Assembly: GCF_039614725.1 (NCBI RefSeq) | Contig: NZ_CP154859.1 | Location: forward strand, 62,001 to 126,000 | Direction of reading: 5' to 3' | Source of the DNA: Thauera sp. JM12B12 | GTDB lineage: Bacteria; Pseudomonadota; Gammaproteobacteria; Burkholderiales; Rhodocyclaceae | DNA length: 64,000 bases | Shown here: piece by piece, positions 48,811 to 56,007 of the stretch | Position numbering within the stretch: the first letter of the stretch is position 1 | Layout: every line of letters starts with the position of its first letter | Translations under genes and position numbers: made by a program | The notes under the pieces: generated by a model | Told to the model about the DNA's origin: nothing | What the model saw: only the letters and a program-made list of their open reading frames with translations | Database searches by the model: none

Positions 48811-50742
48811 TCACGACGCGATGTTTTTGTGGGCGAGGGCCCGTGCAATGAACTGTCGCGGCACGCGCGGGCGCGGCACGCGCTCGGCGAACCAGCTGCG
48901 CACGTCGGTATCCAGCCCGATGCCATGCATATAGTTGTATAGCGCCTTGTTGAGCGCCTTGCCCAGGCTGTCGTGGTCGACGCCGGTGGGGTCGATGAAG
49001 CCGACGTCGTTCTTGGCGAAGGTGACCTTGGGCAGGGGCACCAGCTCGACGCCGTATTCCTGCGGATTCATGCCCACCGGCGAATGCACGGTGCACGCGA
49101 AGCGGTGGAAGAAGCCCGACTGGATGCAGCCGGCCTCGAAGAGCTGGCGCACGTACTCGAGCGCATCCACGGTGTCATGCACCGTCTGGGTCGGAAAGCC
49201 GTACATCAGGTAGGCGTGGACGAGCACGCCGGCTTCGGTGAAGGCGTGGGTGACGCGCGCCACCTGCTCCACCGACACGCCCTTCTTCATCAGCTTCAGC
49301 AGGCGGTCGGAGGCCACCTCCAGCCCGCCCGACACCGCGATGCAGCCGCTGTCGGCGAGCAGCTGGCACAGCTCGGGGGTGAAGGACTTCTCGAAGCGGA
49401 TGTTGCCCCACCACGAGATCGCCACCCCGCGCCGCAGCAACTCCTCGGCGAGCGCGCGCAGCGCCTTGGGCGGCGCGGCCTCGTCGACGAAGTGAAAGCC
49501 CGTCTGGCCGGTCTCGGCGATGATGGCCTCGATGCGGTCGACCAGCAGCGCGGCCGGGGCGCCGTCGTAGCGGCCGATGTAGTCGAGGCTGACGTCGCAG
49601 AAGCTGCACTTCTTCCAGTAGCAGCCGTGGGCCACGGTGAGCTTGTTCCAGCGCCCGTCCGACCACAGCCGGTGCATCGGGTTGAGCATGTCGAGCACCG
49701 ACAGGTAGCCGTCGAGCGGCAGGCCGTCCCAGGTGGGGGTGCCGACCTCGGAGAAGGGCACGTCGGGCTCGACGAGATTGATGTAGCGGACCTGGCCGGT
49801 CTCGGCATCGCGCGCGAAGCTGCGCACCAGGCGCGACTTGCCGCGCCGGCCCTGCAGGTGCTCGAGCAGCGCCAGCAGCGGGCGCTCGCCGTCGTCGAGC
49901 GTCACATAATCGAAGTAATCGAACACCCGCGGTTCGGCGAGCTCGCGCAGCTCGGTATTGACGAAGCCGCCGCCGAGCACGGTGACGATCTCCGGGTGCG
50001 CGGCCTTGATCGCCTGCGCGATGCGGAAGGCGCCGTACACCGAACCGGGGAAGGGCGTGGACACCAGCACCACCCGCGGGGCGTGGCGGTCAATCGCCTC
50101 CAGGGTGAGCGCGCGCAGGGTGGCATCGACCAGCGTCGGCGGTGCGGCGAGCGCGGCGGCGAGCGGCTCGAAGCTCGGCTGGCTCATCGCCAGCGACTCG
50201 GCGTAACGCACGAACTCGAAGCGCGCATCGACCGCGTCGCGCAGGATGTCGGCGAGCTCGTTGAGGTAGAGCGTGGCGAGGTGGCGTGCGCGGTCGGCCA
50301 GGCCCAACGCCCCGAAGGCCCAGGCGAGCGGGTCGCCGCCCTCGGGGTCGTCGGGGTCGATGTAGGCGTCCAGCGTGTCGAAGCGCGGGCCCTCGGGCAG
50401 GAAGGTCCGGCTGGCGATGCGGTGGGCGATGGTCGGGTCGCGGCCCTGCAGGAAGGCAATGGCGGGGCCCACGGTGCAGCGGTAGCGCGCGAAGTGCTCG
50501 ATGAAGCCCTGCACCAGCGGCGTGCGCTGCTTCCTAGGCAGGGCCTCGGCGCGCGCGCGGATGTCGTCCAGGCCGGCGGGCGAGAGCAGGCGCAGCACCA
50601 GCTTGAGCGCGAGGTCGTCCTGCACCGCGTCGATGCCGCGCGAGCGCAGGAAGCCGGTGAGATAGGCCGTGGACGGGTAGGGGGTGTTGAGCTGCGTCAT
50701 CGGCGGAATGACCGACAGGACGCGCGGCGAGGTGTCTGCCAT
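48811..50742 (-). CDS. Radical SAM protein with N-terminal B12-binding-like domain
   Basis: A 643-residue protein. The N-terminal half (about 1-300) includes a cobalamin-binding-like Rossmann domain (RVVLVSTPFPGSVYGAFRIA; TVLGGGFVNTEL) without the DxHxxG histidine motif. The radical SAM core begins TVAHGCYWKKCSFCDVS, with cysteines at 374, 379 and 382, spaced CX4CX2C rather than the usual CX3CX2C. The family acts on many substrates (methyl transfer, ring changes) and none can be assigned here. The gene is isolated between fapA-like and ansA. Confidence 0.85.
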   Translation of the reverse strand: MADTSPRVLSVIPPMTQLNTPYPSTAYLTGFLRSRGIDAVQDDLALKLVLRLLSPAGLDDIRARAEALPRKQRTPLVQGFIEHFARYRCTVGPAIAFLQGRDPTIAHRIASRTFLPEGPRFDTLDAYIDPDDPEGGDPLAWAFGALGLADRARHLATLYLNELADILRDAVDARFEFVRYAESLAMSQPSFEPLAAALAAPPTLVDATLRALTLEAIDRHAPRVVLVSTPFPGSVYGAFRIAQAIKAAHPEIVTVLGGGFVNTELRELAEPRVFDYFDYVTLDDGERPLLALLEHLQGRRGKSRLVRSFARDAETGQVRYINLVEPDVPFSEVGTPTWDGLPLDGYLSVLDMLNPMHRLWSDGRWNKLTVAHGCYWKKCSFCDVSLDYIGRYDGAPAALLVDRIEAIIAETGQTGFHFVDEAAPPKALRALAEELLRRGVAISWWGNIRFEKSFTPELCQLLADSGCIAVSGGLEVASDRLLKLMKKGVSVEQVARVTHAFTEAGVLVHAYLMYGFPTQTVHDTVDALEYVRQLFEAGCIQSGFFHRFACTVHSPVGMNPQEYGVELVPLPKVTFAKNDVGFIDPTGVDHDSLGKALNKALYNYMHGIGLDTDVRSWFAERVPRPRVPRQFIARALAHKNIAS

Positions 50743-50916: not shown

Positions 50917-51917
50917 TCAGGACATCTCGCCGCACAGCGCGGTGGCGAAGAGGGTGCGCACCCGTGCCGGGTCGGCGTGGGTTGCGAGCAGCACGTGCAG
51001 CTTGGCGAAGGCCGACTCCAGCGTCATGTCCGCGGCAGGCACGACGCCGATCCGCGCGAGTGCGGCGCCGGTCGCATAGGCGCCCTGCACCACCGGCCCG
51101 TGTGCGCACTGGGTCCGGTTCACCACCACCACCCCGCGCGCCACGGCGCGCGCCAGTGCGTCGATCAGGCCCGGCTCGGCGTCGGGCAGGTTGCCCGCAC
51201 CGTAGCTGCACAGCACCAGGCCGCGCAGTGCGGGATCGTCCGTGAGCGCGTCCACCTGGCGCGCGGAGAGGCCCGGATGCACCGTCAGCACCGCCACCGC
51301 GCGCGGATCGAACACGGGGCGCGCGAAGTCGCGCGCGCCCGCCGGCAGCAGCTGCCCCGCATCGATCCCGATTTCTATACCCACCTCGGCCAGCGCGGGC
51401 GCGTTAGGTGAGCTGAAGGCGTCGAAGGCTGTGCTGCTGGACTTGGTGCTGCGGTTGCCGCGCAGCAGCCTGCGGCCGAAGAAGAGTCCGATCTCGCCGC
51501 ATTCCAGGCGTGCGGCCAGTACCAGCGCCGCCTGCAGGTTGGCGAGCGCGTCGCTGCGCGGCTCGACGAGCGGGACCTGCGCGCCGGTGAGGATTACCGG
51601 GCGGTCGGCGCCGCGCAGCATGAAGGACAGCGCCGACGCCGTCCACGCCATGGTGTCGGTGCCGTGCAGCACGACGAAGCCGCGGTAGTCGTCCCAGCGC
51701 GCGACCAGCTCGGCGGCGATCGTCGTCCACTGCGCCGGCTGCAGGTTCGCGCTGTCGATCGGCTGCGGCAGCTCGACGAGGTCGAAGGCCGGCAGCCCGG
51801 ACACGCCCGCCAGCTGGCGTCGCAGCACGGCGCCGAAGCCCGGCATCGGACGGTAGCCGTCCGGGCTGCGCGCCATGCCGATGGTGCCGCCGGTGTGCAG
51901 CACCAGGACGCGCCCGC

Positions 51918-51921
<4 letters not shown>
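50917..51921 (-). CDS. ansA: L-asparaginase, type I
   Basis: A 334-residue asparaginase that hydrolyses asparagine to aspartate and ammonia. First catalytic threonine in VLHTGGTIGMARSPDG; the second site VLHGTDTMAWTASALSFML has the T-D pair; the lysine is supplied by NRSTKSSSTAFDAF or its neighbourhood. No signal peptide, so cytoplasmic type I. The start overlaps the aspA stop by four bases (ATGA), so aspartate produced here is next to its own deaminase. Confidence 0.94.
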
Positions 51922-53321
<1,400 letters not shown>

Positions 53322-53386: not shown

Positions 53387-54845
<1,459 letters not shown>

Positions 54846-54853
<8 letters not shown>

Positions 54854-54953
54854 GGCGGCGCCCTCCTTGGCGGAGGCGGCGGTCGCCGGTCGTGGCTGCG
54901 GAGGGCCGCAGGTTTGCGGCCGGGGCCGCGAGGTGACTCGGGTGGACAGTCAT
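54846..54953 (-). CDS. Leader ORF of 35 codons overlapping the agcS start
   Basis: A small ORF with a very good ribosome site (AAGGAG, 7 bases before the ATG at 54953). It encodes 35 residues (MTVHPSHLAAPAANLRPSAA then an Arg/Gly-rich end). Its stop at 54846-54848 lies just inside agcS, so the two overlap by eight bases and translation could be coupled. The agcS SD lies within the small ORF. The peptide has no recognisable family. It is either a regulatory leader peptide or a translated upstream ORF controlling agcS. Confidence 0.6.
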
Positions 54954-55056
54954 GAAATGTCTCCTTGCTGCGCGGCGCGTGGCCGCTGTTGTCGTTTTCC
55001 CCCGCACGGGCGGCAGGGGTGGAGGCATTTCAGCAAGCCGCGGCGTGCGGGGGAAT
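54954..55056 (-). promoter_or_regulatory. Structured agcS 5' leader with anti-Shine-Dalgarno complementarity
   Basis: A perfect 12-bp stem (arms 54997-55008 and 55044-55055) holds a 35-base loop. Loop bases 55021-55037 are complementary to the leader-ORF ribosome site in two alternative registers: GAAAUGCCUCC with GGAGACAUUUC (54964-54954, 10 of 11 pairs) and CUUGCUG with CAGCAAG (54970-54964). The two cannot form at once in one helix, so a switch is possible. No glycine riboswitch signature is seen. The remaining DNA to 55194 holds the divergent regulator's promoter. Confidence 0.5.
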
Positions 55057-55194
55057 TTGGCGTTCTGGCTCCGAGCGTTGCCGAGTGACGCTGGAACTGC
55101 GCCATACTGCGACAGATGCACTGTGTGCTGCTGGTGTGTGCCGCGATCGCGCCGCGCCGGTGAGCAACCCAGTCCCCCGTCCGAGGAGCCCGCC

Positions 55195-56007
55195 ATGCAC
55201 GAGGATTTCGCCCGCAACCTGCGCCTGCTGTGCAGCTACTACCGCTCGGTGGCCGAGGTCTGTCGTAGGCTCGAGATCAACCGGCCGCAGTTCAACCGCT
55301 ACCTGAGCGGCCGTTACCGGCCGTCGGCGCACACGCTGCGCCGCTTCTGCGCTTTCTTCGGCGTGGAGGAGCACGAGATCCTGATGCCGAGCGCGCAGTT
55401 CGAACGCCTGGTGCAGGTACGCCCGCGGGCGGCCGCACCCGCGGCAGGCGAAGCGCCGGAGGCGGCCCACCTCGCGCATCTGAAGGACATCGGTAGCGAC
55501 GGGCTGGACAAGTACCTCGGCTACTACTTCGAGACCTACCTGTCGATGGCCTGCCCGGGTCAGCTGCTGCGCACCCTGGTGTGCCTGGAAAAGCGCGATG
55601 GCCGGGTGTACTACCAGCGCACCGAGCGCCTGATCGAGCATCCGCGCGAGAAGGCCTACCACGGCATCTACCGCGGCCTGGCGCATTTCCTGACCGACCG
55701 CATCTTCCTCACCGACTACGAGACGCTGACCGGCCTCGAGATGACGCAGACCATTCTCTTCCCCTCGTTCAAGAATCGTGTCACCCGGCTCACCGGCCTC
55801 AAGCTCGGTGTGTCGGGCAGTGGCGAACGCATGCCGTGCTGCGCACGGGTCGTGTACGAATACCTCGGCCAAACGATCGACGTCCGTCGCGCGCTGCGCC
55901 TGTGCGGCCTGTACGCGCTGGACGATGAGCGCGTCGACGAGGCGACACGGCGGGCGGTGAACAACGACATCGCGCCCGGCGAGTGGCATTTCCGCGCGCG
56001 TTACTGA
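55195..56007 (+). CDS. XRE-family transcriptional regulator with large C-terminal domain
   Basis: A 270-residue protein. An N-terminal helix-turn-helix (about 5-62) includes FARNLRLLCSYYRSVAEVCR and RPQFNRYLSGRYRPSAHTLRRF. A long C-terminal domain of about 170 residues has no known fold to me; it has several aromatic residues (YLGYYFETYLSM) and two adjacent cysteines (MPCCARVVYEY). The start at 55195 has GAGGAG upstream. It is divergent from agcS and is the natural candidate for its regulator. Confidence 0.85.
   Translation: MHEDFARNLRLLCSYYRSVAEVCRRLEINRPQFNRYLSGRYRPSAHTLRRFCAFFGVEEHEILMPSAQFERLVQVRPRAAAPAAGEAPEAAHLAHLKDIGSDGLDKYLGYYFETYLSMACPGQLLRTLVCLEKRDGRVYYQRTERLIEHPREKAYHGIYRGLAHFLTDRIFLTDYETLTGLEMTQTILFPSFKNRVTRLTGLKLGVSGSGERMPCCARVVYEYLGQTIDVRRALRLCGLYALDDERVDEATRRAVNNDIAPGEWHFRARY

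Follow-up and report, generated by a model that had tools for sequence, protein, structure and literature searches.

A short open reading frame of unconserved peptide sequence overlaps agcS behind a promoter-like element in Thauera sp. JM12B12 and its relatives

The window analyzed here is a stretch of 64,000 nucleotides from Thauera sp. JM12B12 (contig NZ_CP154859.1, positions 62,001 to 126,000), and all coordinates count from its first letter. Its minus strand carries agcS, aspA, and ansA one after another, and a gene for an XRE/Cro-type helix-turn-helix regulator is read divergently from them (Table 1). The regulator had no NCBIfam match. It adjoins agcS in 18 loci of the clade and is 78 to 92% identical in the 17 loci other than that of the window. 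Downstream of ansA, on the minus strand at 48811-50742, lies a gene for a 643-residue radical-SAM-like protein that matched 18 NCBIfam models, none of them above the model's own cut-off. A second AgcS paralogue, 44% identical, is found at G000:C1:701080-702540 with one in-frame TGA within the match.

Table 1. Positions of genes and of predicted or proposed features at the agcS locus (window coordinates)
Feature	Position	Strand	Basis
ansA, type I asparaginase-like	50917..51900	-	PF00710/PF17763; TIGR00519 254 bits, below its cut-off of 260.5
aspA, aspartate ammonia-lyase family	51918..53321	-	NF008909 above cut-off; TIGR00839 (equivalog) 653 bits, below its cut-off of 681
agcS, sodium:alanine symporter family	53387..54853	-	PF01235 1.7e-149; TIGR00835 above cut-off
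Small ORF, 35 codons, TGA stop 8 nt inside agcS	54846..54953	-	Orthologue comparison; agcS codon-2 constraint
agcS Shine-Dalgarno GGAGG, within small ORF	54862..54866	-	Sequence
Small-ORF Shine-Dalgarno GGAGAC	54959..54964	-	18/18, 4-6 nt 5' of ATG
UTR hairpin GCGGC-CACGC-GCCGC	54972..54986	-	GCGGC/GCCGC in 15/18 UTRs
C/A-rich 5' UTR stretch AACGACAACA	54987..54996	-	Conserved in alignment A2
12-bp stem and loop proposed by the first-pass annotation	54997..55055	-	Not conserved; 5' arm probably untranscribed
Predicted transcription start, 7 nt past -10	55020	-	Inferred from -10 position
Extended -10-like TGCTGAAAT (TGnTnnAAT), inside the proposed loop	55027..55035	-	18/18 with CAAAT
CAAATT; its TT would begin a weak -35-like hexamer	55054..55059	-	CAAAT invariant in A1 (17 leaders)
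Direct repeat CGCAGT-ATGG-CGCAGT, 10-bp spacing, operator-like, putative	55096..55111	-	Repeat survey
Divergent XRE/Cro-type HTH regulator gene, 270 aa	55195..56007	+	Pfam HTH_31 6e-10

For comparison we used 18 distinct agcS loci with the divergent regulator, from six genera. Sixteen were drawn from an AgcS family search, in which 19 of 395 family genomes matched at E 1e-150. The other two, G005 and G023, were added via a DNA search with the leader itself and were thus selected by leader similarity. The misses of the AgcS search were G061, with a regulator 52% identical and no overlapping small ORF, and G228/G469, with AgcS at 54 to 55% and no regulator match. One further locus, S1 (L017), duplicates G501 and was left out. 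The extraction pattern missed the leader of G479, so that alignment A1 comprises the 17 others. Within the genus the DNA search matched the leader in just 4 of 29 genomes, so that the agcS locus is patchy there. A protein search matched the divergent regulator in 11 of 199 family genomes, and the scan of genome contigs used the best 80 of 590 matches. At the level of the order, 22 of 250 genomes matched AgcS at E 1e-100, with identities of 41 to 48%, the exceptions being the gene of the window itself and a single match at 55%. Outside the clade we compared 24 loci with a divergent regulator, the agcS start being uncertain in three of them (L037, L078, and L079).

The first-pass annotation, which read the window alone, had claimed a 35-codon ORF (54953-54846) that is led by the Shine-Dalgarno (SD) sequence AAGGAG, spans the agcS SD, ends 8 nt inside agcS, and could control agcS by coupling. 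The ORF is present in the window as described, with the SD AAGGAGAC, and the comparison speaks for its proposed relation to agcS. A GGAGAC-led ORF whose stop lies 8 nt inside agcS occurs in all 18 orthologous loci across the six genera, and the 8-nt overlap reads ATGCTTGA or ATGCTTAA in every one. The length of the ORF varies from 22 to 35 codons. From its ATG to the agcS ATG we counted seven different distances (61, 67, 70, 79, 82, 97, and 100 nt), all of which are 1 modulo 3 (n = 18). The distance from the -10-like element to the small-ORF ATG falls into classes 0, 1, and 2 in 5, 6, and 7 of the 18 leaders, respectively. Seven lengths imply at least six changes, and the chance of frame constancy alone is about 3^-6 by arithmetic made without a parsimony run.

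The stop codon of the small ORF is formed by codon 2 of agcS, CTT, together with the next GA or AA. All 18 loci carry CTT at this codon; among the other leucine codons of these genes CTT accounts for 20 of 1030, and codon 2 is the sole all-CTT column among 36 all-leucine columns. This pattern argues for constraint on a synonymous site of agcS; against it, CTT also stands at codon 2 in 9 of 61 loci outside the clade.

The peptide itself behaves differently. Over 15 pairs among six close relatives, its frame holds 28 synonymous and 150 non-synonymous differences. Because the other two frames give 41/121 and 20/150 in the same comparison, the small ORF's own frame is not special in its substitution pattern, and the peptide, as far as these alignments go, is not conserved. 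This bears on the idea that the small ORF encodes a leader peptide that controls agcS by sensing an amino acid, through ribosome stalling or attenuation. Its place before an amino-acid transporter operon and the conserved SD and frame would suit such a peptide; the free amino acid sequence does not, nor does the overlap with agcS, which leaves no room for a terminator between the two. A search for terminator-like sites on the minus strand of 54700-55300 found none, and no control codons were seen in the small-ORF peptides by eye. We regard a sensing leader peptide as very unlikely.

It could also be argued that the ORF stands open by chance, with no role at the level of translation. G+C-rich DNA keeps frames open, longer open frames run to the small ORF's stop in several clade species, and in 6 of the 24 outside-clade loci an open frame without an SD overlaps agcS. 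Chance alone, however, sits badly with a frame kept over seven lengths, with CTT in 18/18 loci, and with an SD and ATG in 18/18, and we hold this explanation to be highly improbable. Judged by its evolution, the small ORF is real: the frame, SD, overlap, and stop are constrained, and the peptide is not. The sequence holds an SD of the ORF's own, an overlapping stop at an enriched spacing, and a constrained frame, which are the marks by which coupling would be recognized.

Outside the clade, none of the 24 loci with a divergent regulator has an SD-led ORF overlapping agcS. G061 also lacks one, and there GGAGAC-GTC-ATG stands directly before agcS. In L022 and L065, too, a C/A-rich stretch and an SD stand directly before agcS; the C/A-rich stretches ahead of the agcS SD in these two loci and in G061 resemble the one at the head of the clade's leaders. 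The clade thus seems to have inserted a short ORF between an older ribosome-binding site and agcS.

Upstream of the small ORF, the first-pass annotation had proposed an RNA switch. A perfect 12-bp stem (55055-55044 with 55008-54997) was to expose a loop with two mutually exclusive registers of pairing to the SD of the small ORF, and a signal was to choose between them. The inverted repeat is indeed perfect, and the stem is beyond chance within the window's single sequence: none of 200 dinucleotide shuffles produced a Watson-Crick helix of 12 bp across the -10-like element. Folding of the 215-nt leader gives a z score of -2.9. Among the 18 loci, however, this helix is unique to the window's species. 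Around the -10-like element the longest helix reaches 12 bp there, 6 bp in G004, 5 bp in G005, G023, and G608, and 3 to 4 bp in the remaining 13. The close relatives G005 and G004 each break 4 of the 12 stem pairs, and in A1 two slid registers of the stem pair better than the proposed one. When covariation was checked over 17 of the 18 leaders, 49.6% of the aligned cells were paired, against 53.4% in shuffles, and 496 of 500 shuffles did at least as well. We therefore rejected the stem as a conserved RNA, given a helix private to one species and pairing no better than shuffled.

The two loop-SD pairings fared similarly. CTTGCTG at 55037-55031 does pair 7/7 with CAGCAAG at 54970-54964, but the pairing is complete in only 2 of 17 aligned leaders. 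That of GAAATGCCTCC (55031-55021) with GGAGACATTTC (54964-54954) reaches 10/11 in the window and between 0 and 9 of 11 in the other 16. Neither is kept where the SD region changes, and with the registers not kept in the aligned leaders we rejected the loop-SD pairing. At gathering score, Rfam, whose described families include the glycine riboswitch, had no match anywhere in the 64 kb; within 54830-55200 the single match was at chance level (E 5.1). Elsewhere in the genome the loop motif had 17 matches within two mismatches, one of them exact, against 9 for the reversed pattern. What remains in favor of a switch is the improbable stem and the two pairings of this one sequence. Against it stand the private helix, the lost pairings, the Rfam result, and a fit of the loop bases to a promoter -10 region in 18/18 loci, and we consider a switch extremely unlikely.

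TGn ahead of a -10 hexamer is known as the extended -10 motif. Every clade region has CAAAT followed by TGnTnnAAT, the gap being 19 nt (20 in G223), and CAAAT itself lies 47 nt after the TATGGC of the direct repeat in 18/18. The CAAAT and TGnTnnAAT pair arose in none of 3600 mononucleotide shuffles and is present in 6 of the 24 outside-clade loci (Marinobacterium, Halomonas, and Salinicola, with gaps of 18 to 19 nt); it is absent from G061. The -10-like hexamer has no A at position 2 in any of the 18, and a strict sigma-70 consensus scan of 54700-55300 returned no promoters. The conserved "loop" looks like a DNA element resembling a promoter -10 region. Because this element places the predicted start near 55020, the 5' arm of the stem, and with it the loop, probably lies upstream of the mRNA, so that the 5' arm would not be transcribed at all. 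Two other readings of these bases were dropped. One was a sigma-54 promoter made of CTTGC(T) and an upstream GG, which by eye is not kept across the leaders; the other, likewise examined by eye, took the -10-like element as a -35 with a further -10 downstream.

Farther upstream, a direct repeat of at least 6 nt at 10-bp spacing occurs in 17 of the 18 clade regions and in 7 of the 24 regions compared from outside the clade. The 19-nt stretch around the window's repeat is the single occurrence in the genome within three mismatches. Between the XRE regulator and agcS in L022, L027, L029, L030, L047, L048, and L050 there are also direct repeats spaced by 10 bp, which differ from one another. The operator code may drift along with the regulator.

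Within the predicted 5' UTR, the hairpin before the small-ORF SD takes other predicted forms in the 3 of 18 UTRs that lack GCGGC/GCCGC. Its aligned cells are 92.5% paired and 32 of 500 shuffles were as high, so that covariation in the hairpin appears weak. The predicted UTRs fold with z scores from +0.2 to -2.0 against shuffles, which is not clearly better. In predicted folds the accessibility of the agcS SD is at most 0.30 in 16 of 18 leaders. Selected masking of this SD is nevertheless unsupported, with a mean rank of 0.54 against 60 shuffles per leader (n = 18). In 13 of 18 leaders the SD of the small ORF has the higher accessibility of the two, which is weak evidence.

A model of the UTR scored well in the window's own genome only at the agcS leader, with six other places at E 0.7 to 4.7, and we dropped the hairpin as a dispersed regulatory element. 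Across the 395 family genomes the model matched 16 of the leaders it was trained on (those of G005 and G023 are not among the matches listed) and G146. Three further weak places (E 0.002 to 0.007) are immediately followed by ORFs of 163, 85, and 266 codons. The 85-codon ORF, in L200 (G149), comes right after a UTR-like hairpin and GGAGAC. Because covariation is weak and the three model matches precede other ORFs, the hairpin may be no more than one component of a strong initiation region. On the plus strand, antisense to the leader, the same bases form a terminator-like hairpin with a T-rich tail (54972-54989), which could stop antisense transcription toward the regulator gene.

A different role for the hairpin would be as the target of an RNA-binding protein or small RNA that controls agcS by way of the small ORF. 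The recurrence of GCGGC/GCCGC, the other helices in the three remaining UTRs, and GCGAC/GTCGC in G146 would fit such a target, as would an architecture like that of iraD as set out in the parts of PMC5574718 considered here. The weak covariation and the three matches before other ORFs, which suggest a generic strong initiation region, speak against it. CsrA was set aside as the controlling factor: PF02599 had no match in the genome (0/1), and the same search found it in 3 of 14 control genomes, including that of E. coli. Overall, we think a trans-acting factor at this hairpin unlikely.

One relative carries the leader beside another gene. In G146 (L105) the regulator is 83% identical, and there is no agcS within the adjoining 1.5 kb; this genome is not among the AgcS matches. 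Its leader retains ATATGGCGCAG, CAAAT, the -10-like TGCTGGAAT, and GGAGAC, and the arms of its hairpin are altered as given above. The small ORF here starts with GTG and has 35 codons, and its stop overlaps the aspA start as ATGA; in the other clade loci aspA comes next after agcS. The UTR model, trained on the 18 leaders and not on G146, recovered this leader at E 3.2e-5. In most other genomes aspA begins ATGAA or ATGAC, so that an open frame would meet a stop there about one time in three by chance. As a natural swap, the apparent coupling to aspA is suggestive, being a single event in a draft genome.

This arrangement invites a broader reading, in which promoter, UTR, SD, and small ORF would form a portable module, its initiation region, hairpin included, being the actual site of regulation and bound by a trans-acting factor, and its ORF docking anew onto whichever gene comes first (agcS with ATGCTTGA, aspA with ATGA). 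If that were true, one translational signal would govern the whole amino-acid operon. We give this reading little credence.

Taken together, we think it likely that agcS is controlled in two layers instead of by an RNA switch, one being promoter and operator DNA and the other the delivery of ribosomes by translational coupling. In such a scheme, the extended -10-like promoter, with its start near 55020, would drive agcS-aspA-ansA, and the divergent XRE-type regulator would most likely bind the 10-bp direct-repeat operator upstream. The mRNA would begin with the C/A-rich UTR, the small hairpin, and the strong SD GGAGAC, which would recruit ribosomes to an ORF of 22 to 35 codons encoding an arbitrary peptide. 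These ribosomes would pass through the poorly accessible agcS SD and stop in the overlap ATGCTTGA, where the terminating ribosome would re-initiate on agcS or a fresh one would load. We infer that the small ORF is translated and that agcS depends on it, and likewise the transcription start and the role of the regulator. Against coupling, it can be said that an overlap of -8 is not the most efficient spacing and that masking of the agcS SD is not above that of shuffles.

The closest single case is iraD of E. coli. According to the parts of PMC5574718 considered here, a 27-codon ORF27 with its own SD has a stop that overlaps the iraD start, and translation of the two is coupled; CsrA acts at ORF27, and the iraD SD is sequestered by structure. 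The agcS leader shares with this system the SD-led upstream ORF and the stop overlapping the next start. It differs, on the same portions of that report, in the absence of a CsrA match, in SD masking that is not above shuffles, in the gene concerned, in the 8-nt overlap, and in being known from sequence.

A more general frame is given by PMC12548453. In the portions of it drawn on here, NTGNNTGA (-8) and NTGA (-4) are among the enriched overlaps of neighboring ORFs, the best spacings for coupling are -4 to +3 nt, with efficiency declining as the overlap grows, and short upstream ORFs are proposed whose sole role is to deliver ribosomes to the next gene. The agcS and aspA leaders have the same -8 NTGNNTGA and -4 NTGA overlaps as these; unlike what those portions describe, the constraint here can be traced over 18 clade loci and one relative beside another gene. 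A published 5' leader of a gene from the same transporter family is, by the parts of its description considered, alike in position, and the window has no Rfam match at gathering score. Among the open-licence papers listed, titles and opening lines of abstracts contain no description of this agcS leader.

The coupled small ORF is, on this evidence from sequence evolution, a further case of an already known type of coupling. What it would add is an upstream ORF neutral in its own sequence yet maintained across six genera through its SD, frame, and stop, which marks a synonymous site of the next gene. This suggests a comparative test for such ORFs, namely a rare stop-making codon 2 combined with a frame kept across length changes. 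It also indicates that promoter elements can mimic an RNA switch when a single genome is read alone.
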